A stretch of 23,392 bases of DNA from a virus, in IMG/VR virus record IMGVR_UViG_3300031957_000328, positions 1 through 23,392 of that record. One strand, given 5' to 3'. A model generated the notes under the pieces. That model worked only from the letters and a program-made list of their open reading frames with translations. It did not search any database and was not told the origin of the DNA. Positions 1 through 21,725 of the stretch are shown here, piece by piece. Made by a program: the position numbers and the translations under genes. How positions within the stretch are numbered: position 1 is the first letter of the stretch; every line of letters begins with the position of its first letter.

Positions 1-88
1 TCTTCTTAAATAAATCTTCGTATTTGTTTAAATACTGTTTTAGTTTTACTATATTTTTTTCTTTCGGTTTGTATCTTAAAGTACCCAT
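1..88 (-). CDS. Partial small protein, 5' end only (runs off window)
   Basis: An ATG at 88 opens a frame that stays open to the left edge (29 complete codons, lysine-rich, beginning MGTLRYKPKEKN and ending NKYEDLFKK). It overlaps the 3' end of the connector gene by 13 nt, as is normal for this cluster. By position it should be another head-tail connector or accessory morphogenesis protein, but too little is visible to name it. Confidence 0.55.
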   Translation of the reverse strand, partial: MGTLRYKPKEKNIVKLKQYLNKYEDLFKK

Positions 89-576: not shown

Positions 577-578
577 AA

Positions 579-2366: not shown

Positions 2367-2710
2367 ATTACTATATAATCATTATCGTAAGCATCATTTC
2401 CTGATGGTGTTGTATATTCTCCATTATTAACTGAGTAACTTGATATAGCTTGGTCAGTACAGAAAACTTTGTCTTTATAAATTACATTACTTCCCTCTTT
2501 TAAAGTAAGGTCGTAAAACCTTCCCTCTACTAATATAGGACTTAATGCTTTTGATATCACTAAATAATTTTTATCTGTTGTTGTACTTACTGAGTATGTT
2601 GTAGAGGTGTTTGTTGAATCGTCTCTTAGTATCATACTTACAGTACTTGCATAGCTTCTAGGTATTACCTTGAATGTTTGTGCCGATGCAGATGTCGTTA
2701 AGTGTATCAT
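2363..2710 (-). CDS. Small structural-cluster protein of unknown function
   Basis: A 115-residue, Ser/Thr-rich, probably beta-rich protein between the tail-tube-like gene and portal. I start it at the ATG at 2710 (MIHLTTSASAQTFKV). An in-frame ATG at 2761 would add 17 residues, but those codons overlap the tail of an intrinsic terminator and the conserved TACGTTAT element. The element sits exactly 6 nt before the 2710 ATG, the same spacing as at three other genes. The tail is acidic (GNDAYDNDYIVI). Its position suggests a virion component such as a decoration or connector protein; no family motif is recognised. Confidence 0.65.
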   Translation of the reverse strand: MIHLTTSASAQTFKVIPRSYASTVSMILRDDSTNTSTTYSVSTTTDKNYLVISKALSPILVEGRFYDLTLKEGSNVIYKDKVFCTDQAISSYSVNNGEYTTPSGNDAYDNDYIVI

Positions 2711-2716
2711 ACTTAT

Positions 2717-2724
2717 ATAACGTA
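2717..2724 (-). promoter_or_regulatory. TACGTTAT start-proximal element, candidate late promoter
   Basis: TACGTTAT on the minus strand, followed by ATAAGT and then the ATG at 2710, a 6-nt spacer. It fits TAnnTT, the core of the Bacteroidota -7 element TAnnTTTG. A transcript initiated the usual few bases downstream would begin at or next to the ATG. It lies just downstream of an intrinsic terminator, where a new transcription unit would be expected. Confidence 0.6.
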
Positions 2725-2745
2725 CAAAGTTTAGATTTTGTGTAT

Positions 2746-2776
2746 AAAAAAAGAGGAGCATTAAAACTCCCCTCTT
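2746..2776 (-). terminator. Intrinsic terminator after the tail-tube-like gene
   Basis: On the minus strand AGAGGGGAG pairs with CTCCTCT around an 8-nt A+T-rich loop, with a two-base GG bulge, followed by seven T. It lies about 55-85 nt beyond the stop at 2830 and about 35 nt before the next ATG. The bulge makes it weaker than the terminator at 3368-3397. Confidence 0.6.
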
Positions 2777-2829
2777 TCTCTAATCTAAAAATTAATTAAT
2801 GAAAACTTTTGTAATATACAAAAATTATT

Positions 2830-3354
2830 TTAATTAGGTGCAATTTGTGTTGCACTTGCATCTCCTGTTACTACAGAACCTGTAATAAAGTATGGTGGTG
2901 CAGTTTCTTGAGCAACTAAAGTTAGTGTAAATCCACTAAGGTCTCCCATAGCAGCACCACTTACGATTGATCCTCCTGTTACCTCTGCTCCGTGTTCTAA
3001 TCCCATTACAAAGTAGTTACCATTATAATCTTCTACAAAAACGTGAGGTCTTGCGTGTGCGATTAATTTAAGTTCTTCTTGTGTAGCCTTTTCTAGGAAA
3101 GTAAGCGTTAAGTTTAATGTTGATTCGTAGAATGTAGTTCCGTTTTCTCTTGAGCTATTGATTGCAGATTCTAAAGAAGAATTTCCTTTTATATCAAATT
3201 GAAATAAAGTAGGACTTCCTGCAAAAGCAGTAATTTCTCCATCTACAATAGTAGCATCTCCAAGAGTTCCGTAATCTGCAAAGTAAACAGTCTTTAGACC
3301 ACCTACTGCTGATTTACAAGGAACTTTTCTACCTGTTGTTAATATACAAGCCAT
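2830..3354 (-). CDS. Probable major tail (tube) protein
   Basis: A 174-residue protein starting MACILTTGRKVPCKSAVGGL and rich in predicted beta strands, with a region around residues 65-100 reading SRENGTTFYESTLNLTLTFL and then HARPHVFVEDYNGNYFVMGL. It resembles a conserved structural protein of Bacteroidota siphoviruses that I take to be the tail-tube subunit. It has its own unit: a strong terminator precedes it (3368-3397) and another follows it. That arrangement suits a protein needed in many copies. It could instead be a capsid decoration protein, because it directly follows the major capsid gene. Confidence 0.55.
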   Translation of the reverse strand: MACILTTGRKVPCKSAVGGLKTVYFADYGTLGDATIVDGEITAFAGSPTLFQFDIKGNSSLESAINSSRENGTTFYESTLNLTLTFLEKATQEELKLIAHARPHVFVEDYNGNYFVMGLEHGAEVTGGSIVSGAAMGDLSGFTLTLVAQETAPPYFITGSVVTGDASATQIAPN

Positions 3355-3367
3355 AATTGTTAGTATT

Positions 3368-3397
3368 AAAAAAGGGTAGGTAGATTAATACCCACCC
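3368..3397 (-). terminator. Strong intrinsic terminator after the major capsid gene
   Basis: On the minus strand GGGTGGGTA pairs with TACCTACCC (9 bp including one G-U pair) around the loop TTAATC and is followed by six T. It lies 23-52 nt beyond the capsid stop, and its T-tract ends only 13 nt before the next ATG at 3354. Confidence 0.85.
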
Positions 3398-3419
3398 TCT
3401 TATATGTTAGTTAAAAATA

Positions 3420-4349
3420 TTAAGAATAAAGAACTACGTCTGCTCCAATTCCGATTTGAACTCCAGCAGTATAGCGTAAAATTACTCTACAATTCTGCGA
3501 TCCATCGATGTCTGACATATCAATTACTTTAACTTCGTTTCTGTCATTTAATAGACCTGTTCCGAAGAATAAGTTACTTGATCTTGCAGCAATTGCAGTA
3601 TCGTCAGCTAATCCTGATGTAGCATAGATTTTAACACCATCAAAGAATAAATCATTTAATGATTGGTTGTTCCCTTTGTTGTCATATCCGTTAGCTCCAA
3701 CACCTGATGCACCAAATCCTCCTAAAGCTCTAACATAAGCTCTATAAATATTTTGTGATACGTAAATGTGTAGGTCATCTGCTCCGTAAACTGCACTTGG
3801 AATAGCATCAACTATTTTTCCTAATTCAGTTACTACGTTTCCTGCATTAACGGCAGTTTGTGCAACATCTACTACAGTTCCATCAGCAGTAGCTAAAGCA
3901 GTAAATCCGTCAAAGTTTCCTTCTCCTACAGCTCCACTCCATATAGAAGTTTCTGTAGCACTTGCTACTTCAGCAGCTACTCTTGCGATAACGAAATCAG
4001 AGAATAGTGGAGGTAAGCTATCAAATGCAGAATATCCCATTTGTGCAGCTTCCCAGTCAGCGTGAAGTTCTTTTTTACAGATTTGTAAGTTTACTTGTAA
4101 CTCAGTTGGAGTTAGAATTGCTTCCTGTAAGTTTAATCCAGAAGTCGAAGAATCGAAATCGCAATCTGCACTTCTTACTAAGTTTGAAAAAGTTCCTACT
4201 TTCATAGCAGCTTTATACTTAATGTTTGGCATAATAGTTATTGCTGCATCATCTAATGTTTTTGCAGTTAAAAGACTAGCTGCAAGATATTTTCCTGCAA
4301 ACTCTCCAGAATAACTTGAAGCAATTGGTGTGAATGTTGGGTTTGGCAT
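3420..4349 (-). CDS. Major capsid protein
   Basis: A 309-residue protein beginning MPNPTFTPIASSYSGEFAGK, rich in Ala, Gly and Ser. It matches the pattern of major capsid proteins in Bacteroidota phages: a helical N-terminal segment with AASLLTAKTLDDAAITIMPN (residues 23-42), a central CKKELHADWEAAQMGYSAF (about 92-110), and a beta-rich C-terminal half ending VQIGIGADVVLYS. Gene order (protease, small proteins, scaffold-like protein, this gene, strong terminator) supports the call. It should form the icosahedral shell, probably with the HK97 fold, though I cannot demonstrate the fold. It has no separate TACGTTAT element and is probably co-transcribed from the scaffold-like gene 11 nt upstream. 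Confidence 0.8.
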   Translation of the reverse strand: MPNPTFTPIASSYSGEFAGKYLAASLLTAKTLDDAAITIMPNIKYKAAMKVGTFSNLVRSADCDFDSSTSGLNLQEAILTPTELQVNLQICKKELHADWEAAQMGYSAFDSLPPLFSDFVIARVAAEVASATETSIWSGAVGEGNFDGFTALATADGTVVDVAQTAVNAGNVVTELGKIVDAIPSAVYGADDLHIYVSQNIYRAYVRALGGFGASGVGANGYDNKGNNQSLNDLFFDGVKIYATSGLADDTAIAARSSNLFFGTGLLNDRNEVKVIDMSDIDGSQNCRVILRYTAGVQIGIGADVVLYS

Positions 4350-4360
4350 TTTTTTTAATT

Positions 4361-4936
4361 TTAATTGTTAGTTAATCTTTTCATTACTCTATCTAAAGTT
4401 GTTTCTTTTCTGTTTTGAGCGAACTTTAAATTTGTTTTTTGTTTTACTTCTGGATTGTGAGAGATAGGCTCAGTTGCAGGAGTTTCGCTAAGTTCTTGTT
4501 TTACTTGCTCCTCTACTTCTGCCATTTCTTCTTTCTTGTCCTTCAGTTCGTTTATCATACCTTTGATTTCCTCAACGGCTGATTCAAATTCTTGTTTAGA
4601 TACATAAGCCTCTACTTCTTCTTCAGCTTCTACTTCTTCTTCTGATTCCTGTGCTTTTATCTCTCCAATGATTCCTTCCTCGCTTACTACAAGGATGTTA
4701 CCATCTATCATTTGATATTCGCCTACAGGTACGGCTACTCTCTGATCTTGAGTAACAATAAAGATTTCGTTTCCTGCTTCAAAAGCCTCAGCTTCTAAAA
4801 TTGTACCATTGTCTAATTTAGCCTGAGCTAATTTTACTTCCTCTTGAGTTTCCTCAGTAGCTTCTAATTGTGTTTCTACTACTTTTTCCTCTCCTAAGAA
4901 AGTTTTGATTTTGTCTAAGATTTCTGTTGATTTCAT
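4361..4936 (-). CDS. Scaffold-like acidic coiled-coil protein upstream of capsid
   Basis: A 191-residue protein with three parts. Residues 1-36 are Glu-rich. Residues 37-93 form a small beta-rich module (LDNGTILEAEAFEAGNEIF, then VPVGEYQMIDGNILVV). Residues 94-155 are a long Glu/Lys coiled coil, followed by a basic tail ending TTLDRVMKRLTNN. Charge, coiled coil and position directly before the capsid gene fit a scaffolding protein that organises procapsid assembly and is then removed. Residues 32-38 (QEEVKLA) match a peptide repeated in neighbouring proteins that could be a protease site. The ATG at 4936 is preceded at 6 nt by CACGTTAT. Confidence 0.6.
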   Translation of the reverse strand: MKSTEILDKIKTFLGEEKVVETQLEATEETQEEVKLAQAKLDNGTILEAEAFEAGNEIFIVTQDQRVAVPVGEYQMIDGNILVVSEEGIIGEIKAQESEEEVEAEEEVEAYVSKQEFESAVEEIKGMINELKDKKEEMAEVEEQVKQELSETPATEPISHNPEVKQKTNLKFAQNRKETTLDRVMKRLTNN

Positions 4937-4942
4937 ATTACT

Positions 4943-4950
4943 ATAACGTG
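4943..4950 (-). promoter_or_regulatory. CACGTTAT start-proximal element, candidate late promoter
   Basis: CACGTTAT, one mismatch from TACGTTAT, followed by AGTAAT and the ATG at 4936, again a 6-nt spacer. It would drive the scaffold-like and major capsid genes up to the strong terminator at 3368-3397. Confidence 0.55.
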
Positions 4951-4971
4951 TTAAAATTTATATTTGCATTT

Positions 4972-5355
4972 TTAAAATATTGCCCTTTTTACTGCTCTAA
5001 CTCTTTCATCTATTTCTTCACTTAACTTCTTTCCCATTTTTAAAGATTGATTTATTTTTCTCAAAGAGTTATCAATAGATTTTCTATCAACTCCTATAGA
5101 TTCTGCTTTAGATTCAAAATCTGATGATTGTTTAATTAATTCTTGCCTTGTTTTGTTAAAATCTTTTATAATAGGCATAATTCTATCAAGCATTTTATTA
5201 CCTTCGATATTAAAACTTCTATTTGCATCACCAAAAAGACCATCAAGTTTATCTGCTGTACTTTGTGCATCTGACAACAAAGACAATTCAACCTTTTCAG
5301 TAGATAATTCTTGTTTATTAATCTCGACTATTTTAGCCATTGCTTTTTTACTCAT
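4972..5355 (-). CDS. Small helical head-cluster protein, paralogue 3 of 3
   Basis: A 127-residue, Lys/Glu/Ser-rich, almost wholly helical protein. Residues 18-30 (STEKVELSLLSDA) match residues 11-21 of the two upstream proteins (STEKVELALVDD and SKERVELGLIDD), so the three form a tandem family. This copy has a longer, divergent N-terminus (MSKKAMAKIVEINKQ). It has no recognised domain. Location between the protease and scaffold-like genes suggests a head-assembly role, such as an internal head or scaffold-associated protein. The ATG at 5355 lies 9 nt after the preceding stop within ATATAAGTTATGAG, a start context shared with the gene at 5694. Confidence 0.65.
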   Translation of the reverse strand: MSKKAMAKIVEINKQELSTEKVELSLLSDAQSTADKLDGLFGDANRSFNIEGNKMLDRIMPIIKDFNKTRQELIKQSSDFESKAESIGVDRKSIDNSLRKINQSLKMGKKLSEEIDERVRAVKRAIF

Positions 5356-5364
5356 AACTTATAT

Positions 5365-5694
5365 TTATATACTGTTTATTATATTTGTTATTTTATTAGA
5401 TGCTTTTGCAACTTCATTTTGATAATCTTTTGCTTCATCTCCTCTTGCTCCAAATAATTTTCTTAAATCGTCTGCACCTAATTCTTTTGCTTTATTTTCA
5501 GCATCTTTAGCTAAACTAAAAGCTTTTGCATAATCAGATTGTAGATTATTTAAATTATCAGCAATTTTAAGTGCTTGGTTTTGCAATCTTCTGCGATCTG
5601 AATTTGCTTTATCTAATATTTTTTCTATATCATCAACTAACGCTAATTCTACTTTCTCTGTGCTAAATAGCATCTTGCTTATACGTTTACTCAT
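5365..5694 (-). CDS. Small helical head-cluster protein, paralogue 2 of 3
   Basis: A 109-residue, helical, coiled-coil-like protein starting MSKRISKMLFSTEKVELALV. Its first 18 residues are nearly identical to those of the gene at 6174, and similarity is also visible at nucleotide level around the two starts. The remainder diverges but keeps a helix-rich, charged composition with DAENKAKELGADDL (about 64-77) aligning to DKAESAAKDLGIDL of paralogue 1. Function is unknown. The conserved N-terminus carries the E-x-V-E-L peptide proposed below as a possible maturation site. Confidence 0.7.
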   Translation of the reverse strand: MSKRISKMLFSTEKVELALVDDIEKILDKANSDRRRLQNQALKIADNLNNLQSDYAKAFSLAKDAENKAKELGADDLRKLFGARGDEAKDYQNEVAKASNKITNIINSI

Positions 5695-5697
5695 AAC

Positions 5698-5832
5698 TTA
5701 TATTTTACCGATTCCTTGATTTATTATTTTACCCTTGCAACACTTTACTGAATAGGTATCTTTATCTTTACATAAACAACCTCTACGTCCACCCTTTGGA
5801 CTTGTCTTACTTGGTGTTTCAAATTGTTTCAT
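5698..5832 (-). CDS. Cys-rich microprotein (44 residues)
   Basis: A 44-codon ORF from the ATG at 5832, beginning MKQFETPSKTSPKGGRRG and containing CLCKDKDTYSVKCC near residues 19-32, ending NQGIGKI. It fills the otherwise empty gap between two paralogous genes, ends within 4 nt of the next ATG, and shows a CxC...CC pattern with conserved-looking glycine turns. I recognise similar Cys-rich mini-proteins from Bacteroidota phage structural clusters but know no function. The four cysteines could bind a metal or form disulfides. Confidence 0.7.
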   Translation of the reverse strand: MKQFETPSKTSPKGGRRGCLCKDKDTYSVKCCKGKIINQGIGKI

Positions 5833-5835
5833 ATC

Positions 5836-6174
5836 TTAGAACAAACTGTATAATTGGTTTATTTTACTCATTATATTTTGAGCTTCTTTTATACCTGATT
5901 TGCTTGATGCTATTTTATTTTTAAATGTGTCAGGTAAGTCTATACCTAAGTCTTTAGCTGCAGATTCTGCTTTGTCTGCTATTTTAATTACAGATTGATA
6001 GTCGTTTATAATTGCTTTATATTTGCTTTCTGCTTTACCTAAAGCTGATATTAAACTTTGTCCTATTTTTAAATCATTATTTACTGTTTTTTCAAACTCA
6101 GATTCAAAGTCATCAATTAAACCTAACTCAACTCTTTCTTTGCTAAATAGCATTTTACTTATTCTTTTGCTCAT
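5836..6174 (-). CDS. Small helical head-cluster protein, paralogue 1 of 3
   Basis: A 112-residue helical protein starting MSKRISKMLFSKERVELGLI, the first of three tandem paralogues directly downstream of the protease gene (6-nt gap). The near-identical N-terminal 18 residues contrast with a more divergent body, as if the N-terminus is a targeting or processing signal. No known domain is seen. Its start has no TACGTTAT element, so it is probably transcribed with the protease gene from the element at 7372-7379. Confidence 0.7.
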   Translation of the reverse strand: MSKRISKMLFSKERVELGLIDDFESEFEKTVNNDLKIGQSLISALGKAESKYKAIINDYQSVIKIADKAESAAKDLGIDLPDTFKNKIASSKSGIKEAQNIMSKINQLYSLF

Positions 6175-6180
6175 TTTATA

Positions 6181-7365
6181 TTATTTTATTGGTATGCAAT
6201 TAGGTACTAGTTTACCACCTTTCATTTTCATTCCGTATTGTTCGTATCCTGCTTGACAAGGTGCTTTTAAATTGTGTTCTTCACAAGGCATAAACCAAGT
6301 CTTACCCTCAAACTCGTGTTCGTGGTAACTCTCACATCCTATATCTTGTGCAGCTTTTATAGCTAACTCTTTAGTAGCATAAGCTAATCTATCATCAATA
6401 ATAGCCATAGAATCGTTTATAACCTCACTAGCTAATTCTATCTCTCCTAGTTCTTTAAGTTTACTCTCTGACCATCTTAAAGCAGCTTTACCACCCCATA
6501 ATAAATATGAAATAGTACCACACGCTTTAGAATCTCCCTCATCGTAATATTCCTCTGCTCTACTTAAATAAGAATACATTCTCTTTATAGTTTCTTTAGA
6601 GATAGGTTTGCCTTGTGCTAATTGTTTAGCTCGTATCTTGCCAACTTGTGTAGCACACTTGTTGTTTACTTTGTCGTTTAGTTCTATACCTCTCTTAGCG
6701 TTGTTCTTTACTCCATCAGGGTAATCACTATAAGATTCTAGTTCTCTCCTCTGACCATCTTTTAATCGCTTATCCTCTTTCACTATAGAACGTATTACAG
6801 ATAACATTTCTTCTGCTTCTTCTTCATCAAAGTCGTTTATAGGTTCTTTAGGTCTTTCCATTTTGTCAGCAAAGTAACCCTCGATACTAAATCCTTTTAC
6901 TTTACCTGTTTTAACAAAGTCATTCCAGATCTGGTCGTTGTTTACTTTTACTGCACCCATCCAAGTACCTACAGGAACATTTAATCCGTACTTACGAGAT
7001 TTATCGTGTACCTCATCTTCAACTAACCAAGATTCTACTAAGGTTAATCCATTAATCGTGTGTTGGTGTTCTAATGTAGCTTTTGATTGATTGCCATTCA
7101 TTAGATAAAGTTGTGAAGCTTTCTCTACTGTTTCTTTTGAGAAATATATATAATATTCTTCTTCTCCTTTTCTACGATAGATAGGTTTGTTAGGAACAAG
7201 TAATGCACCCATTAAGATACGTTTCTCATTATCTACTTCAGCAAGTTTTATTTCCTCGCTTTTTAGAGCTATAAAATCTTCCTCTATTGCAGGATTCTCA
7301 ACTACCGAAATAGCTTCTATTCCTGTCATTTCATCGTCTCCTAATATTAGTTCAACTATTCTCAT
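6181..7365 (-). CDS. Head maturation protease fused to a conserved C-terminal domain
   Basis: A 394-residue protein. Residues 1-175 resemble XkdF-like/prohead proteases: GIEAISVVENPAIEEDFIAL near 15-34, a candidate catalytic His in LEHQH (98-102) and a candidate catalytic Ser in VKGFSIEGYF (156-165). This enzyme should cleave scaffold and capsid components in the procapsid. After an acidic linker, residues about 210-310 form a second module (SDYPDGVKNNAKRGIELN, then NNKCATQVGKIRAKQLA, KRMYSYLSRAEEYYD, ACGTISYLLWGG) that recurs in many phage proteins and has no function known to me. The C-terminal 50 residues hold Cys and His (CESYHEHEFEGK, FMPCEEH, KAPCQAGYEQYG) and may bind metal. ATG at 7365, 6 nt after TACGTTAT. 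Confidence 0.75.
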   Translation of the reverse strand: MRIVELILGDDEMTGIEAISVVENPAIEEDFIALKSEEIKLAEVDNEKRILMGALLVPNKPIYRRKGEEEYYIYFSKETVEKASQLYLMNGNQSKATLEHQHTINGLTLVESWLVEDEVHDKSRKYGLNVPVGTWMGAVKVNNDQIWNDFVKTGKVKGFSIEGYFADKMERPKEPINDFDEEEAEEMLSVIRSIVKEDKRLKDGQRRELESYSDYPDGVKNNAKRGIELNDKVNNKCATQVGKIRAKQLAQGKPISKETIKRMYSYLSRAEEYYDEGDSKACGTISYLLWGGKAALRWSESKLKELGEIELASEVINDSMAIIDDRLAYATKELAIKAAQDIGCESYHEHEFEGKTWFMPCEEHNLKAPCQAGYEQYGMKMKGGKLVPNCIPIK

Positions 7366-7371
7366 ACTATT

Positions 7372-7379
7372 ATAACGTA
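7372..7379 (-). promoter_or_regulatory. TACGTTAT start-proximal element, candidate late promoter
   Basis: TACGTTAT, then AATAGT, then the ATG at 7365: a 6-nt spacer. It separates the tail block (ending with the tape measure gene at 7397) from the head block and would drive the protease gene and the small paralogues. Confidence 0.6.
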
Positions 7380-7396
7380 TTAATTTATTTTTTTGT

Positions 7397-9136
7397 TTAT
7401 CCTAAACTTGCACTTGTAACAATGTTTCTGTCTAACTCTTGTGCCGTACTCACATCTCCTGAAACTACAAAGGCTTGTAATGGTGGTTGATTACCTAACA
7501 ATTCAGCTATTTGATTTGTTCCACTTGTTCCTACTGTACTAAATTGAGGAGGTAAAGATGCAGTACTTGGTGCAGAGCTTGGTCTTGATGGTACAGATAC
7601 ACTCGGTGTTCCTCCACCCATACCTGCAGTTTGTGGTGTTTTAGTAGATGTTATTGCTTTAACAGTTTTTAAACCTGATATTGTCGCTGCTGCTGCTGCT
7701 GCAAAACCTAATGCTGGACCTATTATAGGTATTTTTGCAAGTGATGTGTAACTATCTTGTGCACCTTGATAGGTAGATATTAAAGCACTTGCTACGGCTG
7801 CTGCCTTACCTGCTGCAGTTTCTTTTCCTAGATTTGCTGCTAATCCTGCTAAACCTTTTTTAGCATAATCAAGTTTTTGATCTTGTGTCATTTGAGACCA
7901 CTTAATTTCTTTTTCTGCAGCGTCTGCATTAAGATCATTTATTTTACCATCAAAATCTTTTTTAAGATTAATTAACATCTCATTTTTTTCTGCTTCATCT
8001 GTTATCTCACGTTCTATAAGTGCCTTTTTAGCATCATAATCTTGTTGAAGTTCTATACGTTCTATCTCACGTTCTGTTTTACCTATAAGTGCTAATTCGT
8101 TTTGTAGGTCTTTTTGTTCTCTTAATAATGAGTTTGTGTTTGTTTGTTGCTCACTCCTAAAGCCTGTTATTTGTGCCTCAATAGCTGCTTGTTCATTAAG
8201 TGCTTCTTGATAGGCTATTTGTAAATCTACATTTTCTTTATTTTTTGATAGTTCTACCTCTGCTTGTTTAACTCTAGCAGCAGCGTTTGACATCATTGTT
8301 TTTTCTTGTTCGTCTAATAGTTTACCTAAATCCTCGTTTGCTTTTATACGTTCCTCAAAGCTTTTACTTTCATCATCTCTAATTTGTCTTAGTTCCTCTG
8401 CTTGTCTATCGTAGCTTTCAATAAGTCCTTGATTAACTGCCTCTAATTTTCTAGCAGTTTTTTCTAACTCAACATTAGAATCTGCAGCCTTAATAGTTTC
8501 TTTAACATAATCACTAGTTGCTTTAACTACTTTATTAACTACCTCTGTTCCTTTATCGAATGAATTATTTACTCCTGTTAAAACATCAACGGCTTCTTTA
8601 CCTGCACTCTTTACATCTTCTAATGCTCCTGCAAAGTCTCCACTAAATACTTTTTTTACTGCACTACCTATTAATCCTAAAGTATCTAAGTAAGATTCAA
8701 ATCTTTCTTGTATGTTTCTTTTAAAAGCATCTGCAAAGTCTATTAAAGATTGTTTAGGATCTTCAAAAATACTTTTAAAGTAACCTACTACTGTACCTAC
8801 ATTATTATCTAAGAAATTAAAGAAATCGTTAAAAGCAATAGATAAACTTTCAAAAGCAATATTAAAAGCATCAGCAACTTTTTGGTTTTGCTCAAATACT
8901 TCTTTTAGTTTTGTGAATGCAGCAAGTAATAAACCAATACCAATAGCCTTTAAAGTAGTTCCTATTTTTCTAACTCCTTTAGCCGTGTCTTTAGATGCTT
9001 TCTCAACACCTTCAAAACCTTCTGCAGTTTTATCTACATTTTTGTTAAGAGTATTAATTTCTTTATTGATTCCCTCAACATCTTTTTCTATTTTGTCGGT
9101 CTTTGCCTTTAACTCAATTATTACTTCTTTTGCCAT
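7397..9136 (-). CDS. Tape measure protein (short)
   Basis: A 579-residue protein with long heptad-like coiled coils (residues 5-60 and about 225-430), a hydrophobic segment near 63-75 (KAIGIGLLLAAFTKL) and a second Ala/Gly-rich hydrophobic stretch (GPALGFAAAAAATISGL) in the C-terminal third, followed by a Pro/Ser/Thr-rich low-complexity region. This is the usual design of siphovirus tape measure proteins, which set tail length and help DNA eject. At roughly 1.5 Å per helical residue the protein would specify a tail of about 85 nm (inference). It follows the two large tail genes and is preceded by a 45-codon ORF that overlaps its start. Confidence 0.75.
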   Translation of the reverse strand: MAKEVIIELKAKTDKIEKDVEGINKEINTLNKNVDKTAEGFEGVEKASKDTAKGVRKIGTTLKAIGIGLLLAAFTKLKEVFEQNQKVADAFNIAFESLSIAFNDFFNFLDNNVGTVVGYFKSIFEDPKQSLIDFADAFKRNIQERFESYLDTLGLIGSAVKKVFSGDFAGALEDVKSAGKEAVDVLTGVNNSFDKGTEVVNKVVKATSDYVKETIKAADSNVELEKTARKLEAVNQGLIESYDRQAEELRQIRDDESKSFEERIKANEDLGKLLDEQEKTMMSNAAARVKQAEVELSKNKENVDLQIAYQEALNEQAAIEAQITGFRSEQQTNTNSLLREQKDLQNELALIGKTEREIERIELQQDYDAKKALIEREITDEAEKNEMLINLKKDFDGKINDLNADAAEKEIKWSQMTQDQKLDYAKKGLAGLAANLGKETAAGKAAAVASALISTYQGAQDSYTSLAKIPIIGPALGFAAAAAATISGLKTVKAITSTKTPQTAGMGGGTPSVSVPSRPSSAPSTASLPPQFSTVGTSGTNQIAELLGNQPPLQAFVVSGDVSTAQELDRNIVTSASLG

Positions 9137-9258
9137 TCTTTCAATACTTTAAATGTTTCCTTAAATGTTTCAGGATATTTGTATTTACCCTTAGCTATTT
9201 TTATGTTTTCCGTTTCGCCTGTTGCTAGAGGCAGTAAGTCTAATATGTTTTTTATCAC
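9121..9258 (-). CDS. Small protein with GTG start between tail gene and tape measure
   Basis: A 45-residue ORF reading (V/M)IKNILDLLPLATGETEN, then KYKYPETFKETFKVLKEWQKK. The GTG at 9258 overlaps the TGA of the upstream 694-residue protein (GTGA) and the stop lies 16 nt inside the tape measure gene. This tight coupling, full occupancy of the gap and sensible composition support a real gene. It has no recognised family. Confidence 0.6.
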   Translation of the reverse strand: MIKNILDLLPLATGETENIKIAKGKYKYPETFKETFKVLKEWQKK

Positions 9259-11339
9259 GTTAGTACACTATTAGTATAGGTTAATGTTTTGACTATAAGT
9301 TCAATCTCTGACTTGCCTGTCTTTAGGTTTGTGCTTAAACTATTTATATAATACTCTTTTCCGTTTATTACTAAGACATCGTTTATACTATAATTTAGAA
9401 TAAAACTTTCTGGCAGTTGTGCAGTTACTTTTATTATCCTTCCTTTAAGATTAAAAGATTGCTCTATGAATTGTTGGTAAAATCTACTAAACAAACTATT
9501 TTCATTTAAATTACCAGTATATTCATTAAACTCAATTCCAAAGTTTAAACTATGACTGCTAAGTTCTGTTGAATTGGAAGGAGCATTATATGTGTCGTAT
9601 TGTGCTGAGGTAACTGGGTATTCTGATGAATCAACTAATTGATTAAAAAACATATATGGACTACCCAATGCTATCTTATCATCAAAATCAAGCCAAGCAC
9701 CATAAACTAAACCTGTTGTATCATCATTCTCATCTATTATATTTACTAATACGCTACGTTGCCCATCTACTTTTACATCATAGCTTTGTCCATCATACTT
9801 ATCTGGTGCAGAATAATTAAGGTTTCCAAATTGTTGGCTAAATTGGTTTAAGTATTTTAAACTTGTTAGTGTAACAGGTGGAGAATAATCAAAGTTAATT
9901 TTTGAATATGGTATTGGTCTGTCGATTGTGCTTTGAGTTATATCTACGTATTTAGTGATATCTCTTGTTACTCCAAGTGTCATAAAATCATCAAAGGTCT
10001 GCACATAGATTTGTGAGCTATCTCTTTTTGTGTAAGCAACTAAATTAAACATCTTAAACAAAGTTGTTAAGTAATCTATCACTTTCATATTAGGTATATA
10101 GTCTTGTATAAATAAGTTTTCGCCTAAAGTAAAAGCATTGTAAGAATAATCCCCAATTGTTGCACCAGTTCCATCTTTTAGCGTTCTAGTTATACGAACA
10201 GTTTCAGCATCAAAACTAGCACCGATATTAGAATTCAATCTAAACTCTATATCATAAGTTCGTGAGGATAATGTGCCACTATTTAAATCTCTTAATGTAA
10301 CATTAAAATTAGTAGATGGTGTCATTCTTGTTTGATAATCTAATAACTCGTTTGTTAGTTTATCTCTTGATATAATTTCTAAATCCCTATCTGCATCTGT
10401 GTCAAGAACTAATCTTATAGAATAATTATACTCATCGCTTACTACTAATTGGTTATTAGTTAAAAAATCAGTACCAGATGTAAAAGTAAAATCTGCAAAC
10501 GTTAGCTTCTTAGACCTTGTAACATAATCAATACCATAACTACCAATGCCTGAACCTGTTGAAGGTGGTTTTACTTTTTCCCTATGCAGCCATAAATAAA
10601 GATTATCAAACATTGCACTACCAAAAAAACTTTTTATACTCCCCTCATCTACCATATTAAACGTAATCCCATATTGAGTTTCTATTGCTTCAATAATACG
10701 TTTACATTTTATAGCTGGTTTTAATTGTTTATTTAGTGGTAGTGTGCCACTTGCAAAACCTACACTATGTAAATTATATGAAGGAGAAACAGATGTAGAA
10801 TCATAAACGAATATATTAGCCAAACTAATTAAAGGCAGAGTTACGTTTCTATTAGAAGTAAGAGTAGCTTTTACTCCACTACTTTGTAAACCATCTGTAA
10901 AGGCATCTAAAAGGTCGTTGTTATTTAAGACCATATCATAAGCGTTAAGAGGGTTTAAAGCACTTAAAGTTTCATCTCCGAATAAGTCTTTTAAATTGTT
11001 AGGTTTGCCAAAGAACACCACCTTATAAGTATGTGGCTTGTTGTCTTTCATTCCTACTCCATTTAGTTTTATTTGACCTATCTTAAAATCAATACCATTT
11101 AGTTTTAGTATTGCATCTACTCTAAACCTAGCATCAAAGCCATTATCTATATCAAAGTTGTAATAATGTTTGAATAGTTTGTTGTTTGTTGAGGATGCAG
11201 GTAAATTGAATTGCTTAGAAAAAGGTGCAAAGACTTTAGCAATATCTCTAATATCTTTAAGAGCCTCAGTAATTGTTACTGATTCATCTTGAAACATATC
11301 TACTCTTATGTTATTTATGTATAGTTCTAAAACTTGCAT
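9255..11339 (-). CDS. Large tail structural protein (distal tail/hub candidate)
   Basis: A 694-residue, beta-rich protein beginning MQVLELYINNIRVDMFQDES, with KVFAPFSKQFNLPASSTNN (about 36-54). It has no transmembrane segment and no enzymatic motif. Its size and its place between another tail protein and the tape measure gene resemble the distal-tail or hub proteins of Bacteroidota siphoviruses, which are generally annotated only as structural proteins. Its ATG at 11339 touches the last base of the upstream stop (TAATG), so the two are translationally coupled. The role is assigned by context. Confidence 0.55.
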   Translation of the reverse strand: MQVLELYINNIRVDMFQDESVTITEALKDIRDIAKVFAPFSKQFNLPASSTNNKLFKHYYNFDIDNGFDARFRVDAILKLNGIDFKIGQIKLNGVGMKDNKPHTYKVVFFGKPNNLKDLFGDETLSALNPLNAYDMVLNNNDLLDAFTDGLQSSGVKATLTSNRNVTLPLISLANIFVYDSTSVSPSYNLHSVGFASGTLPLNKQLKPAIKCKRIIEAIETQYGITFNMVDEGSIKSFFGSAMFDNLYLWLHREKVKPPSTGSGIGSYGIDYVTRSKKLTFADFTFTSGTDFLTNNQLVVSDEYNYSIRLVLDTDADRDLEIISRDKLTNELLDYQTRMTPSTNFNVTLRDLNSGTLSSRTYDIEFRLNSNIGASFDAETVRITRTLKDGTGATIGDYSYNAFTLGENLFIQDYIPNMKVIDYLTTLFKMFNLVAYTKRDSSQIYVQTFDDFMTLGVTRDITKYVDITQSTIDRPIPYSKINFDYSPPVTLTSLKYLNQFSQQFGNLNYSAPDKYDGQSYDVKVDGQRSVLVNIIDENDDTTGLVYGAWLDFDDKIALGSPYMFFNQLVDSSEYPVTSAQYDTYNAPSNSTELSSHSLNFGIEFNEYTGNLNENSLFSRFYQQFIEQSFNLKGRIIKVTAQLPESFILNYSINDVLVINGKEYYINSLSTNLKTGKSEIELIVKTLTYTNSVLT

Positions 11340-12481
11340 TAACGTACATTATTTATAGTTTGATTAGCAAATTCTACTTGTATAGTGTAATCAATTAGTT
11401 TGTCGTTAAGACTTGTTTTAAACCCTAAACTATTTGATGTGATTAATACAGGAAGTGTTTTATTATCGTACTCTATCCATACTCTCTCACTTAGTATAAG
11501 TTGTTTAAATAACTCATTGTTAGATTCTGGATAGTAACCACTATTAAGCGTAAGGCTTTGTTTAGCGTTCTTAGTTAGTATAGTGTTTTGATGACTGTAA
11601 GTATTATAAGAACCATTAGTTAAAATGTTTCGTTTAAACTTCTCCTCTGTTGCCGATATGCTTATACTATTCTTTTTAAACATCCATAAATCTTGATATG
11701 CTCCAAACTTATTTATAAAAGTTAGCTTGTAAGGGTTGAATTTACATTCGCTTATATTGTTTACTTTGATAACAGTAACACCCTCTATTGCGTTTATTAT
11801 AACCTCATCTACTGGGTATATAGTTTCGCCTTTTAGAAATTGTTGTAAGCATATACTATCTTCAAAAGTTCCTCCTGATCCCTCTACTCTTTCTCTGTAA
11901 TTATCTACACTTGCAGATGCAGTACTAACGTATTGTATTTGGTCTTGTATCTTCAAACCTGAAGAAGGTGTCCAAGTATGTATTTCATCTCCTTTATTAA
12001 AGAAAGCTACTGAAGTTGTTTTTTCGTTATCTACAGGTATTCTTAAAGCATCATCATCTGATTTTAATATTGTTGTGTTTGATTGTAAGTAGCCTTGTAA
12101 TAGTTGAGGGTTTGCACCTTCTTCAAAATAACCATATCCTAAAAACGCTCTTTCTCCTAAAACAGTTGTAACAACATCGCTACCACCTGTTATAGTTTCT
12201 GTAGTTCTATAATCAACATACATTGTAGTATAATCATCTGCTGCTAAAATTGAGTTAGGGTACGTTCCACTAAACTCTGCAGGAATGTAGTCTTTAATTA
12301 ACTCTGCTATTTCAAAGTTTACTTTAGCGTTTATAGCAGTCGAGGTTAATGTGTATTGTGGACTTCCTTGCCAAGTAGTCTCAGCAGCTCCTGCGTATAT
12401 TCTTAACTCAAGTTTTGCACTTGCTAGGTTAGTTGTATCTAGGTTTATAAAGTAAGGACTTATTACGTTTATCTTAGCCAT
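11339..12481 (-). CDS. Tail structural protein
   Basis: A 380-residue beta-rich protein starting MAKINVISPYFINLDTTN, with an early region (ASAKLELRIYAGAAETTWQG, 20-39) resembling an Ig-like or carbohydrate-contact fold, and NVRxx at the end. It is adjacent to and coupled with the 694-residue protein (TAATG) and with the gp10-like gene upstream (again TAATG). No motif gives a specific role. A baseplate or tail-tip structural role is the most likely by position. Confidence 0.5.
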   Translation of the reverse strand: MAKINVISPYFINLDTTNLASAKLELRIYAGAAETTWQGSPQYTLTSTAINAKVNFEIAELIKDYIPAEFSGTYPNSILAADDYTTMYVDYRTTETITGGSDVVTTVLGERAFLGYGYFEEGANPQLLQGYLQSNTTILKSDDDALRIPVDNEKTTSVAFFNKGDEIHTWTPSSGLKIQDQIQYVSTASASVDNYRERVEGSGGTFEDSICLQQFLKGETIYPVDEVIINAIEGVTVIKVNNISECKFNPYKLTFINKFGAYQDLWMFKKNSISISATEEKFKRNILTNGSYNTYSHQNTILTKNAKQSLTLNSGYYPESNNELFKQLILSERVWIEYDNKTLPVLITSNSLGFKTSLNDKLIDYTIQVEFANQTINNVR

Positions 12482-13017
12482 TATTCAAATATTATGTTTT
12501 CAATATCTTTTACAAAGTTTTCTTGTAGTTCTTCTGGTAGTTTGTCAAACGCTTGATTAAAAGGTTTAGTAAAAAACATACTAGCCTTTATACCTTTTTG
12601 AAATACACTTCTTGCTATTAAGAATTGTAAAGATTTGTTTGTTATAAATCTACCTGTTTTTTTATCTCTACCTTTTATACCTTTTCTTTTTATAAAGTCT
12701 TTAAACGCTGAGGGTGGAGGCATTCCCTTTAATCCTCTTTTTCCTCCTTTGCTTTTAAACTTGTAAGGACTACCGCTTGTGGTTTTGTCAGCGTAGTAAG
12801 AATTAGCACCTCTAACTCCCTGATCTTGGAACATTCCGTATTTCTCCATAAAAAACTTAACACCTATAGAATCTCCTGTTGTAAATGGTAGATACTCTAA
12901 ACTGTTATATAGTTTCTTGTTTACGTTTTTATTGCCCTTTGTTAGTCTTGACCTAGCTTGTTGTATTACAAACTTACCAAAGTTATTTAAAGCCTCTTTT
13001 GTTTGTTTTAACTGCAT
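12481..13017 (-). CDS. HK97 gp10-like tail completion/neck protein
   Basis: A 178-residue basic protein beginning MQLKQTKEALNNFGKFVIQQ, with an N-terminal helix, then YNSLEYLPFTTGDSIGVKFF (41-60) and a Gly/Lys-rich middle (FKSKGGKRGLKGMPPPSAF). The layout of helix, 'slow down and assemble' beta strands, and a flexible basic loop matches the HK97 gp10/tail-completion group found next to tail terminator genes. It begins 10 nt before the upstream gene ends. Assignment to this group is moderate because sequence similarity within it is always low. Confidence 0.5.
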   Translation of the reverse strand: MQLKQTKEALNNFGKFVIQQARSRLTKGNKNVNKKLYNSLEYLPFTTGDSIGVKFFMEKYGMFQDQGVRGANSYYADKTTSGSPYKFKSKGGKRGLKGMPPPSAFKDFIKRKGIKGRDKKTGRFITNKSLQFLIARSVFQKGIKASMFFTKPFNQAFDKLPEELQENFVKDIENIIFE

Positions 13018-13481
13018 ACGTTTATATCATTTGCAATTAATACATTGAATGTACAAGCTACACCTGCTAATTCATTTTCAAACCTTTCATAAAAGAACTC
13101 ACAAGAAGCATCGCCATCTATTTGGTATTTGTCTCTATATAAATCCCCTTTGCTTAATAACCCTACTAACTTATTAGCTACTGCTAGTTGTGTGTTTAGT
13201 ATATCTTGCTCGTTGTTGTTTCCCCTGAATACGTCTGTTGTTTCCTCTTTTGATTGATCTACAACATCCATACACATTACAGTTATGTTAAAGCTGAGGA
13301 CTTGTTCTTGTATAGTTGCAGAGTTTACTATAATATGTGATAAAGGAAATATAGTTTGTTTGGATAAATCTATTTCAAATATATCGCCTGTTGTTACTGT
13401 ATTGACATTCTCATCTGCTAAGAGATTAGTCTTAATAGTTTCCGTGATTTGATAATAGCCTCTTACTCCTTGATTACTCAT
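13008..13481 (-). CDS. Probable tail terminator protein
   Basis: A 157-residue alpha/beta protein beginning MSNQGVRGYYQITETIKTNL, with FPLSHIIVNSATIQEQVLSF (46-65) and a later NTQLAVANKLVGLLSKGDLY. Size, predicted fold and position between tail chaperone and gp10-like genes fit the tail terminator family that caps the tail tube at the neck. No single diagnostic motif exists for this family, so the evidence is mainly contextual. The start overlaps the end of the 40-residue membrane protein gene by 8 nt. Confidence 0.5.
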   Translation of the reverse strand: MSNQGVRGYYQITETIKTNLLADENVNTVTTGDIFEIDLSKQTIFPLSHIIVNSATIQEQVLSFNITVMCMDVVDQSKEETTDVFRGNNNEQDILNTQLAVANKLVGLLSKGDLYRDKYQIDGDASCEFFYERFENELAGVACTFNVLIANDINVCS

Positions 13482-13596
13482 TCTTTATAGATTTGTATTT
13501 AACACTAAGTAATAACATTATTAAAAAAACAATAGTGAAGAAATTCAAATGAGGTTCTCCACATATACCGAAAAAATGTTTAACTGTTTCTATCAT
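13474..13596 (-). CDS. Small single-pass membrane protein (40 residues)
   Basis: An ORF from the ATG at 13596, beginning MIETVKHFFGICGEPHLN, with one strongly hydrophobic segment (FFTIVFLIMLLLSV, about 19-32) followed by a basic end (KYKSIKNE). Its ATG overlaps the stop of the -1 frame chaperone extension (ATGA). The positive-inside pattern predicts the C-terminus in the cytoplasm. I recall similar ICGEPH mini-membrane proteins in flavobacterial phage tail clusters. The location beside tail genes does not exclude a lysis-associated (holin-like) role, but nothing demonstrates it. Confidence 0.65.
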   Translation of the reverse strand: MIETVKHFFGICGEPHLNFFTIVFLIMLLLSVKYKSIKNE

Positions 13597-13850
13597 CTAT
13601 TATATTTACTTTTTATATTGTTTGATTCTATCTCTGCCTTTTCTTTCATAAAACTTAAAGCATAAAGACAGGTGTGTATATTTAGTTTAGTGATATCTTC
13701 AAATCTTGTAATATCTCCCTGAGAGAGTCCGAAAAGTGATTGATACCATCCCCATTTCCTTCCGAAGTTAGATATTGAGCTAAGTTCGTTTCCTTGCCCT
13801 CCTCCAAAGAGTTCAGCATAGTTATCGACAAGTCCATCCCTAAATGATAA
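13593..13850 (-). CDS. -1 frame extension of the tail chaperone (gpGT-like T part)
   Basis: An 85-codon reading frame, -1 relative to the upstream chaperone, beginning after the slippery T-run at codon TTA (13850) and ending with TGA at 13593. It reads through FGRKWGWYQSLFGLSQGDIT, then NIHTCLYALSFMKEKAEIE and ends IKSKYNR, which looks clearly protein-coding. The frame is closed by a TAG at 13866-13868 just upstream of the slip site and has no ATG until near its end, so the whole stretch can only be translated by frameshifting. Predicted fusion: 161 residues of the 0 frame plus 85, or 246 in total, analogous to lambda gpGT that recruits tail tube and tape measure proteins. Confidence 0.8.
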   Translation of the reverse strand, partial: LSFRDGLVDNYAELFGGGQGNELSSISNFGRKWGWYQSLFGLSQGDITRFEDITKLNIHTCLYALSFMKEKAEIESNNIKSKYNR

Positions 13851-14332
13851 AAAAAAAGTATCGAACTAAGTACGGCATCCATTGGCATATCTTTCATCTT
13901 ATCAGGATCATCTCCTGTGTAGTCCTCTATCAAATATTTATCATCGTGCTTTTGTTTGATTGGTCTGTATAGGACATTCATTGCTCTATGTATGTTGTCC
14001 ATATCTCCAATGTACGTATCTAAGTCAATATACTCTCCAAAACTAATATCTTCTAACTTAGGTACAAAACCATAAGTCTTACCTTTCATTTTAAACTCTC
14101 TCACTAGCTTAGGCTTCTCATTAAACATATCAGTTAGTATAAGTGTAATGTCTTGAATACTTTTAGCTTTCATTTGCATTATCGTATCGCCTCTTAGTCC
14201 ACAAAAGATTTCAATCATCTTAATAGCTAAGAAGTTCTCATCTGTGTTGTTTCCTTGAATCTTTAGATACCTTTGATATTTATCTAGTGTAATCTCACTA
14301 AGAGTATCAGGAATGTAAACTTCTAGTTTCAT
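13682..14332 (-). CDS. Tail assembly chaperone (gpG-like), 0-frame product
   Basis: A 216-residue protein beginning MKLEVYIPDTLSEITLDKYQ, mostly helical, with KMIEIFCGLRGDTIMQMKAK (38-57) and a conserved-looking FGEYIDLDTYIGDM then AMNVLYRPIKQKH. This matches the pattern of tail assembly chaperones in Bacteroidota phages. It is produced when ribosomes do not slip at the T9 run (13849-13857). The 0-frame C-terminus after the slip site (FYHLGMDLSITM... to DLKISLN) overlaps the -1 extension for about 170 nt. It is preceded at 6 nt by TACGTTAT (14339-14346) and is the first tail gene after the terminase pair. Confidence 0.75.
   Translation of the reverse strand: MKLEVYIPDTLSEITLDKYQRYLKIQGNNTDENFLAIKMIEIFCGLRGDTIMQMKAKSIQDITLILTDMFNEKPKLVREFKMKGKTYGFVPKLEDISFGEYIDLDTYIGDMDNIHRAMNVLYRPIKQKHDDKYLIEDYTGDDPDKMKDMPMDAVLSSILFFYHLGMDLSITMLNSLEEGKETNLAQYLTSEGNGDGINHFSDSLREILQDLKISLN
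13849..13857 (-). promoter_or_regulatory. T9 slippery site for -1 programmed frameshifting
   Basis: Nine consecutive T on the minus strand. In the 0 frame they read CTT TTT TTT TAT, giving the perfect slippery heptamer T TTT TTT. One-base backward slippage joins the 0 frame to an 85-codon open -1 frame. I did not model a downstream stimulatory pseudoknot. Slippage at such a run could also occur at the transcript level (RNA polymerase stuttering). Confidence 0.75.
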
Positions 14333-14338
14333 ATATAT

Positions 14339-14346
14339 ATAACGTA
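14339..14346 (-). promoter_or_regulatory. TACGTTAT start-proximal element, candidate late promoter
   Basis: TACGTTAT, then ATATAT, then the ATG at 14332: a 6-nt spacer. It lies in the 34-nt gap after the terminase large subunit gene and would start the tail-gene unit. TTTAAAA lies 12 nt upstream of its ACG, the same arrangement as at the terminase element (15797-15804). Confidence 0.6.
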
Positions 14347-14366
14347 AAATTAAAAACTTTTAAAAA

Positions 14367-15536
14367 CTATCTTATAGCGTATTGTCCTCTATTAGGATTC
14401 TTTAGTTGCATCATTAAAGCGTATCTAGCTGCATCAATGCAATCAGGGTGTGTACCTGTGGGTTTTTGTAGATTGTTACCCTCTTTGTCTTTTGCCCATA
14501 CATAACCCTGTAACTCCCTAATAAGATTCTTAGACTGTGATGTAATGTAGATTTCGTTTTGGTTGATTAGGTTAATACCATAGACTATTGAATCTCTACC
14601 CTTTGTTACTGCAAAGACTTTGTGTCCATAGTTTCTTAGTTCTTGTATTGACTTAGGCTCTGCACTATCTGCATATATGTTTTCTCGTATCTCATTAGTC
14701 TTAATAAAATAACTTAGGTCTCTATTAAGCATTCCCTTTTGATAAAGTACCTCATCAAATATGTAAGATTGATTCCATTTGTAAAGTTTTATAATCGTGC
14801 TTGGATCTACAGAGTAGCCAAAATCTAAGCCTGCACATAATAACCTAGCCTCCTCTGGAATAGTGTCTATAGGTTTCCAATCAGGAATACATACACCCTC
14901 TAAACTGCCTATCTGTCCTAGTCCGTAAACTTGCCACCAATTTGCCCAGTAGGTTGAGGTCTTTCCTTTCTCTCTAGCTTTTTCTATTTCTTTTACTATA
15001 GTATCAGGTAGGCTATCGTTGTCTTTGTAGGTTAGGGTTATGAAGTTCGCATCTTGTTGTCCTATAAGTTCCTTATCTACCCAGAATAGATTAGCAGGGT
15101 TATAGTCTAACCAAATATTACTTGATGTTCTAACTGCTAATTGTTGATAGGAATCAAAGCTAACATTGTTACATTCGTTAATAAATAAATCAGTTCTTCT
15201 AGCTCCTCTTAGTTTGTCTGGTTGGTCTGTAGAAAAGAACTCAATATAACTACCATTACTAAAAACGTATTTTAAGGTACTTTTGTTGAACTTTCTATCA
15301 TCATACCTATGTAACCCCTTTAAGATGTTTAAGAAGTCTTTTAAAGCACCTCTACGTAAGTGTGGTATAGATTCAGATACGATGCTTATTTCTTTTCCTT
15401 TGTTTCTTATTGCATAATCTATAAGGATAGATATAATAGCTATTGTTTTACCTGCCGATGATCCTCCTCTTACTATACGAACTCTTTTATCTAGTTCTCT
15501 TAATCTTTGTAGTGCTGAGGTTTTTGTTACTTGCAT
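14367..15536 (-). CDS. terL: Terminase large subunit
   Basis: A 389-residue packaging motor of the PBSX-like type. The N-terminal ATPase has a Walker A RIVRGGSSAGKT (20-31), an adenine-motif-like start, and a Walker B with catalytic Glu in DLFINE (116-121), followed by WLDYNPAN (142-149). The C-terminal RNase H-like nuclease has candidate metal-binding Asp in CAGLDFGYS (D238), IYADSAEP (D290) and HPDCIDAARYA (D365). It binds portal, cleaves concatemers and pumps DNA. Translation is coupled to the small subunit (its ATG overlaps the preceding stop). All expected motifs are present, so it appears intact. The length is at the short end for the family. Confidence 0.93.
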   Translation of the reverse strand: MQVTKTSALQRLRELDKRVRIVRGGSSAGKTIAIISILIDYAIRNKGKEISIVSESIPHLRRGALKDFLNILKGLHRYDDRKFNKSTLKYVFSNGSYIEFFSTDQPDKLRGARRTDLFINECNNVSFDSYQQLAVRTSSNIWLDYNPANLFWVDKELIGQQDANFITLTYKDNDSLPDTIVKEIEKAREKGKTSTYWANWWQVYGLGQIGSLEGVCIPDWKPIDTIPEEARLLCAGLDFGYSVDPSTIIKLYKWNQSYIFDEVLYQKGMLNRDLSYFIKTNEIRENIYADSAEPKSIQELRNYGHKVFAVTKGRDSIVYGINLINQNEIYITSQSKNLIRELQGYVWAKDKEGNNLQKPTGTHPDCIDAARYALMMQLKNPNRGQYAIR

Positions 15537-15769
15537 TAATCAATAAATAAAGGCACATCTTCGTTTACGTGAATGTCCTTAGTTTCTCTTGGTTTACCTG
15601 CTACATAGTTGTAGTAGAGTTGTACATATTTAAAGTCTCCCTTTTCTAAACCTTTTTTAAGAGCTTCAAATGCTAATGGTTCTAAAGGCGTTAGCTTTTC
15701 TACTAACTTTAATTCCTCGTCTTTAGGCTTTCTACCTGAATTGTCTCTTTTACCTCCGTGTTTACTCAT
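15536..15769 (-). CDS. Terminase small subunit-like protein (short)
   Basis: A 77-residue protein beginning MSKHGGKRDNSGRKPKDEEL, with the Gly/Arg-rich GGxRxxSGRKPK motif seen at the start of many phage terminase small subunits, then AFEALKKGLEKGDFKYVQLY (34-53), typical of the oligomerisation part, and NYVAGKPRETKDI. It is half the length of common small subunits and lacks an obvious N-terminal helix-turn-helix, although the basic AT-hook-like stretch could bind DNA. Coupling to the large subunit gene supports the call. Its ATG has no TACGTTAT at 6 nt; instead a palindrome separates it from the element 28 nt upstream. Confidence 0.7.
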   Translation of the reverse strand: MSKHGGKRDNSGRKPKDEELKLVEKLTPLEPLAFEALKKGLEKGDFKYVQLYYNYVAGKPRETKDIHVNEDVPLFID

Positions 15770-15773
15770 CTTG

Positions 15774-15794
15774 AAAAAACTTGATTAATCAAGT
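15774..15794 (-). terminator. 16-bp perfect palindrome plus T-tract (terminator or operator)
   Basis: ACTTGATTAATCAAGT (15779-15794) is a perfect palindrome; on the minus strand it ends in six T, so it can fold as a 6-bp A+T-rich hairpin with TTAA loop and T-tract. It lies 24-44 nt after the stop of the PP-loop gene and only 2 nt downstream of the TACGTTAT element. It may terminate the replication operon, or act as an operator covering the start of the late transcript. The stem is weak for a terminator (two G-C pairs). Confidence 0.45.
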
Positions 15795-15796
15795 AT

Positions 15797-15804
15797 ATAA
15801 CGTA
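15797..15804 (-). promoter_or_regulatory. TACGTTAT element upstream of the terminase genes
   Basis: The same octamer as before the other morphogenesis genes, here 27 nt before the terminase small subunit ATG and not 6 nt. The transcript would carry a short leader beginning within the palindrome at 15779-15794. TTTAAAA lies 12 nt upstream of its ACG, as at 14339-14346. Confidence 0.5.
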
Positions 15805-15817
15805 ATAATTATAAATT

Positions 15818-16663: not shown

Positions 16664-16769
16664 TCTTCTCAAGGCTTTTCTTTATTACCTCTACACTTAA
16701 ATAGATTTGGCTTACTATGTTCTCTAGTCTTTTTATTCTTTGTATGTTGGTATGTTTCTTTTGTTTCAA
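16641..16769 (-). CDS. Small coiled-coil protein with TTG start (42 residues)
   Basis: An ORF from the TTG at 16769, which overlaps the TGA of the methyltransferase (TTGA), reading (L/M)KQKKHTNIQRIKRLENIV then SQIYLSVEVIKKSLEKNE and ending SKHD. It has a heptad pattern throughout, fills the 100-nt gap and overlaps the start of the PP-loop gene by 23 nt. Its position suggests co-translation with the modification genes. The TTG start and small size keep confidence moderate. Confidence 0.55.
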   Translation of the reverse strand: MKQKKHTNIQRIKRLENIVSQIYLSVEVIKKSLEKNENSKHD

Positions 16770-20911: not shown

Positions 20912-20941
20912 TTCGTTTTGCTTTTAATTAATAATTATACT

Positions 20942-21576: not shown

Positions 21577-21725
21577 AGCTTTACCTTTTTATCTAAATCG
21601 TTTTTTCTGTCTGTGCAGCCACAATCATCTTTTCCTAATTTCTTTGCTACCCAAGTAGCTAAACGTTTACCATAACCTAACGTTATTACGTTTATGATTT
21701 TTTCTAATAGTGTTCCTAGTCCCAT
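21570..21725 (-). CDS. Small protein with CGC motif (51 residues)
   Basis: An ORF from the ATG at 21725 beginning MGLGTLLEKIINVITLGYGK with a DDCGCTDRKNDLDKKVKLW end. It overlaps the end of the sigma-factor gene by 10 nt and the start of the 63-residue gene by 7 nt, so the region is otherwise fully explained. I recognise DCGCxxRKxxL mini-proteins from Bacteroidota phages; no function known. Confidence 0.7.
   Translation of the reverse strand: MGLGTLLEKIINVITLGYGKRLATWVAKKLGKDDCGCTDRKNDLDKKVKLW

Follow-up and report, generated by a model that had tools for sequence, protein, structure and literature searches.

A bipartite element, AAA-N14-CGTTATA, precedes the late genes of an uncultured virus and is, in all likelihood, a late promoter for bacterial core RNA polymerase carrying a phage-encoded, ECF-like sigma factor, with transcripts that would be mostly leaderless or near-leaderless. 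The window analyzed here is a complete 23.4 kb IMG/VR viral record in which the recognisable genes all lie on the minus strand: portal, capsid-like, protease-like, tape-measure-like, and terminase genes occupy 76-15769, and replication-side genes are found at about 15.8-23.4 kb. A bipartite element of fixed spacing, its position before late genes, the predicted sigma fold, the use of one promoter class per phage, and the covariation of the motif with sigma residues are all documented here. The candidate promoters, the sigma gene, and a palindrome in the terminase leader are the following.

15797..15819, minus strand: candidate late promoter of TerS/TerL; AAAA at 15816-15819 and -10 element CGTTAT at 15797-15802, with the pattern in register; terminase transcript predicted to start at 15790, leader about 21 nt
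14339..14361, minus strand: candidate late promoter of ORF 13682-14332; AAA at 14359-14361, CGTTAT at 14339-14344; ATG and predicted +1 at 14332
7372..7394, minus strand: candidate late promoter of ORF 6181-7365 (head-maturation-protease-like); AAA at 7392-7394, CGTTAT at 7372-7377; predicted +1 at 7365
4943..4965, minus strand: candidate late promoter of ORF 4361-4936 (scaffold-like), which precedes the capsid-like gene; AAA at 4963-4965, CGTTAT at 4943-4948; predicted +1 at 4936
2717..2739, minus strand: candidate late promoter of ORF 2363-2710, which directly precedes the portal gene; AAA at 2737-2739, CGTTAT at 2717-2722; predicted +1 at 2710
21716..22210, minus strand: ECF-like sigma gene, 164 aa, TTG start
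15780..15793, minus strand: palindrome CTTGATTAATCAAG, lying across the position where the terminase transcript is predicted to start, with a T tract after it (to 15774)

The minus strand carries ACGTTAT at 2717-2723, 4943-4949, 7372-7378, 14339-14345, and 15797-15803, in every case on the coding strand upstream of late genes and preceded by T at four sites and by C at 4943. A sixth copy, at 21680, is on the plus strand and runs antisense to the ORF that contains it. Shuffles predicted 1.96 copies on both strands, and none of 100 reached six. Four of the five coding-strand copies stand exactly 6 nt before an ATG, while the opposite strand has no CGTTAT-N6-ATG; among 300 second-order Markov simulations, 284 contained no such arrangement, 16 contained one, and none contained more, so that the recurrent motif first noticed from the letters is real. 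The fifth copy (15797) is located 27 nt upstream of the TerS ATG, and 2710, within a longer open frame from 2761, is the most likely start of the gene that follows the first site. What had been described was only the CGTTAT half of the element. The half that was overlooked, AAA, stands exactly 14 nt upstream of CGTTAT at all five sites; across the window, AAA-N14-CGNTAT picks out the five late sites only, and most of the genes lack the AAA-N14-CGTTAT module.

To place the element among relatives, 80 TerL-related viral loci were fetched (L-numbers label loci or contigs). In these loci, ACGTTAT-N6-ATG was counted 100 times on the strand that carries TerL, near-copies included, and not once on the opposite strand. 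In aligned orthologous upstream regions, AAA (-17 to -15, counting from the C) is followed by 14 bases with an A/T bias only and then by CGTTATA, with AAA conserved at 95-100% in 39 non-redundant near-ATG sites and at 91-100% in 34 non-redundant terminase sites. Among the relatives, AAA is in register at 68 of 73 distinct coding-strand CGTTAT-N6-ATG sites, compared with 16 of 207 CGTTAT occurrences on the other strand. Variants of the motif include CGATAT, TTATAT, and CGTACAT; in the TTATAT class, AAA is one base further off when the ATG sets the frame. L080-type phages possess a different region-4 helix together with a different upstream element, GTACAnTTT, a pairing that fits sigma region 4 as the putative reader of the upstream element. 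Promoter class was assigned solely from orthologous starts of named genes, because CGATAT matches before a second ORF (L112, L121, L148, and others), considered as promoters, turned out to be coding sequence of the gene before it. One stray CG[TA]TAT-N6-ATG match was all that was found in a Flavobacterium phage whose terminase is related but which has no detectable sigma relative, and L329-L331, which are MAG contigs with distant sigma homologues, had no recognisable in-register site before a late gene. The bipartite build, fixed spacing, restriction to late-gene starts, and retention in relatives strongly support the late-promoter reading.

The distance from the module to the start codon is itself informative. 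It amounts to 27-42 nt at terminase promoters, to 16-20 nt at non-terminase late genes in L059, L160, and L168, and to 18 nt in several TTATAT-class phages. Since the spacing between the promoter parts stays constant while the distance to the ATG varies, we do not regard the module as a translation element. Such an element, already raised as an alternative by the sequence-only reading, would act through an A-rich context of the Bacteroidota kind, with A at both -3 and -6, on mRNAs starting further upstream; the spacers do have A at -3 and -6 at 4 of 4 ATG sites, and these bases favor initiation in Flavobacterium johnsoniae (PMC6847099). The proposal is nonetheless barely plausible, given that internal spacing is fixed over ATG distances of 6 to 42 nt (with the whole module 16-42 nt away at some sites), that AAA lies 29 nt upstream of the ATG, that most window genes are without the motif, and that the motif changes along with a sigma factor. 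The comparison with the Bacteroidota -7 element (TAnnTT) fared no better: conservation falls on CGTTATA and AAA, not on TTTG at -33 with TAnnTTTG at -7, and a pattern scan for this primary-sigma promoter, with spacers inspected, matched 0 of 5 sites. A generic sigma-70 pattern scan of the window yielded fewer matches than in shuffles. Elsewhere, at 20940-20972 (minus strand), TTTG-N19-TATATTG upstream of ORF 20624-20911 matches the Bacteroidota primary promoter well and is possibly an early promoter.

The sigma gene directly follows a helicase-like gene on the replication side. Its product matches the PHROG 1740 sigma factor (E=7.6e-7), scores 19.4 bits with Pfam Sigma70_r2, below the curated cut-off of 24, and has 72 relatives whose profile retrieves region 2 of Streptomyces SigR (1h3l) at E=0.0012, which provides sequence homology to sigma region 2. 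The predicted structure (164 residues, pLDDT 84) comprises two helical domains and a low-confidence linker at 84-95, and in structure comparison it comes closest to ECF sigmas, with Z 10.7 for E. coli sigmaE and about 9.7 for Mtb sigmaH. In this model, regions 2 and 4 are joined by a linker without region 3, as defines ECF (group 4) sigmas, and the cognate sites would supply a -10 core of the GTT/CGT type (CGTTAT and its variants, in register). The usual, though not strictly defining, -35 element with AAC (GGAAC) ~16-18 nt before the -10 core was not found, with AAA at 14 nt occupying the upstream position. A sigma relative is present in 37 of the 80 TerL loci, many of the others apparently being too short to include the gene, and cultured phage records gave no sigma match at E<=0.01. 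Judged by homology and modeled fold, the phage encodes a small ECF-like sigma; this is almost certainly the reader of its late promoters. L011 and L021 harbor a more distant sigma-like gene near TerL, with 23% identity to the window sigma, which is possibly a second sigma.

Residues likely to confer specificity can be located by comparison with characterized sigmas. In the SigR alignment, S66 corresponds to N of 'RILTN' and D70 to N of 'IN'; these are Mtb sigmaH N88 and N92 in the residue numbers of the sigmaH paper, which reports that N88 contacts T-10, that N92 contacts C-11 of the template strand, and that sigmaH promoters carry G-11 T-10 T-9 (PMC6411747). Further scans yielded 208 distinct sigmas, of which 122 could be assigned a promoter class; no phage had two motif classes. 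Across these 122 pairs, the -12 base is C with D70 in 78/80 and T with N70 in 42/42, and the -10 base is A with G66 in 55/55 and T with S, T, N, or A at position 66 in 66/67. When the 164 sigma columns are ranked, column 70 is first for the -12 base, and columns 38 and 66 are first and second for the -10 base; the -10 element thus changes at its first base jointly with residue 70 and at its third base jointly with residue 66. The exceptions are L160 (G66 with CGTTAT) and L137 and L328 (C-12 without D70), and residue 70 tracks -12 here as opposed to the -11 contact of sigmaH N92, an offset of one base. G66/A-10 appears in three separate sigma-tree groups (L112/L125, L083/L064, and L172 types) and N70/T-12 in two (L172 and L310/L321 types). 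A covariation sign test over so few independent changes (three of G66/A-10, roughly two of N70/T-12) was not significant; the independent pairs for G66/A-10 point in the same direction every time and are too few for significance. The weight of the covariation comes instead from the coincidence of the changing columns with the residues picked out by the sigmaH structure. In members of a single sigma family, D70 occurs with CGTACAT and N70 with TGTACAT (L310-L314, L321, L324 against L305-L309, L317-L319).

The covariation also bears on whether the sites could be promoters for a host sigma, primary or ECF, with the phage sigma serving other genes. Host polymerase would be used regardless, and joint change of sigma and promoter could merely reflect phage lineage. 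Yet the five sites match no Bacteroidota TTTG/TAnnTTTG promoter, the sigma columns that change are those predicted from the sigmaH structure, and the same base substitutions are seen again in sigma groups that lie apart in the tree, all of which renders a host sigma a highly unlikely reader.

When the sites are numbered in the sigmaH frame, CGTTAT becomes C-12 G-11 T-10 T-9 A-8 T-7, six bases follow, and the predicted +1 is the A of the ATG. T(-1) is found in 33/33 non-redundant CGTTAT sites with an ATG. The initiator argument was based on terminase orthologues, as pattern-only sites without an ATG include many coding matches; in these orthologues +1 does not fall on a start codon, and 100% of the sites have T(-1) and 95% a purine at +1, as would suit a transcription initiator lying 12 nt downstream of the C. 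Leaderless late mRNAs, as predicted from geometry and initiator bases, are likely because the sigmaH numbering places +1 at the A of the ATG and because the initiator persists at leadered terminase sites. There is a lesser but appreciable chance that the phage sigma reads the promoter and that transcription starts a few nucleotides upstream of the ATG, giving leaders of 1-5 nt: start choice can move by a few bases, and the spacer contains A residues, against which stand the sigmaH numbering, the T(-1) at both kinds of site, and the purine(+1) preference at terminase sites. Of the initial interpretation, the late promoter is retained, leaderless transcription gains indirect backing by analogy with ECF numbering and from the initiator, and the Bacteroidota -7 box is abandoned.

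From these data we infer sigma binding, expression timing, and transcript 5' ends. Each site would constitute a full promoter, AAA-N14-CGTTATA, used by bacterial core RNA polymerase together with the phage sigma, which, once made, would send polymerase to the five promoters feeding the terminase, head, and tail units. Region 4 of the sigma would contact the A-tract, and region 2 would read CGTT as C-12 G-11 T-10 T-9, with residue 70 setting the -12 base and residue 66 (with 38) setting the -10 base. Four of the five transcripts would begin at the A of the ATG, leaderless or nearly so, and the terminase transcript would carry its leader of about 21 nt.

Phage sigmas that redirect host polymerase to late genes are represented by T4 gp55 and SPO1 gp28/gp34, and the proposed system is similar in that a phage-encoded sigma would steer host polymerase to late genes. 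T4 late promoters consist of a -10 element, TATAAATA, alone, with no -35 element, and their transcripts have SD leaders. In contrast, the element described here is bipartite and probably leaderless, with an ECF-like sigma; a T4-type extended -10 TATAAATA without an upstream element was not found at the sites, which have CGTTATA and an in-register AAA. There is also a likeness to the promoters of Mtb sigmaH (PMC6411747) and C. glutamicum SigH/SigD (PMC11588781), which share the GTT -10 core and an equal distance to +1. In C. glutamicum, SigH promoters have GTT and SigD promoters GAT (PMC11588781), a change at the very place of the CGTTAT to CGATAT change among these phages, and sigmas of the SigR/SigH kind have their specificity residues at positions equivalent to those of the phage sigma. 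The differences are that the phage upstream element is AAA rather than GGAAC/GGAAT and about 3 bp nearer the -10, that the phage promoters conserve the -12 base (C or T) and the TATA that follows the core, and that the sigma is phage-encoded, assigned to late genes, and weakly similar in sequence. Leaderless genes of Actinobacteria and Deinococcus-Thermus have TANNNT about 12 nt before the start, a -10 element whose position lets transcription begin at the start codon, as predicted here; unlike the phage element, these are primary-sigma promoters (PMC3160421). With the Bacteroidota primary promoter, only A/T-richness is common, and letters, spacing, and second element differ.

The palindrome CTTGATTAATCAAG is conserved in relatives, including L080-type phages in which the promoter is not adjacent (L305, L312, L321), and its folding as RNA in the terminase leader is not better than that of shuffles. 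Its persistence away from the promoter suggests a probable function of its own, for example as an operator or packaging site. Immediately upstream of the terminase operon lies a phosphoadenosine-phosphosulfate-reductase-like gene (15818-16672, minus strand; PHROG 424). Three consecutive small ORFs at 4972-6174 (minus strand) have similar starts (MSK..), and two of them share a 72-nt stretch at 78% identity, which suggests tandem duplication. A terminator-like hairpin with a T run occupies 3378-3397 (minus strand), just upstream of ORF 2830-3354, and many relatives have a G-rich/T-run stretch immediately upstream of late promoters; this placement suggests terminator-promoter punctuation.

The host is probably a member of the Bacteroidota; the best cultured-phage TerL matches are Flavobacterium phages (49%) and distant sigma homologues occur in MAG contigs labeled Bacteroidia, Psychroflexus, and Campylobacterales. 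No earlier description of a Bacteroidota phage sigma with such late promoters was found in the literature searched, whose incomplete coverage makes the novelty provisional. Leaderless-type signals were reported in 1 of 37 Bacteroidetes/Chlorobi genomes (PMC3160421), and F. johnsoniae transcripts are mostly leadered (PMC6847099); the phages would thus produce leaderless messages in a phylum where these are thought rare. On balance, it seems more likely than not that a large group of uncultured phages, probably with Bacteroidota hosts, runs its late program with its own ECF-like sigma and leaderless late mRNAs, and that sigma and promoters were rewired together several times according to a residue-to-base code (66/38 with -10, 70 with -12). 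A late-transcription mechanism can be proposed for many uncultured viral contigs, in which the motif may be used to locate late operons. The natural sigma/promoter pairs would display stepwise change of specificity, with the D70/N70 family offering close natural pairs for base recognition at -12.
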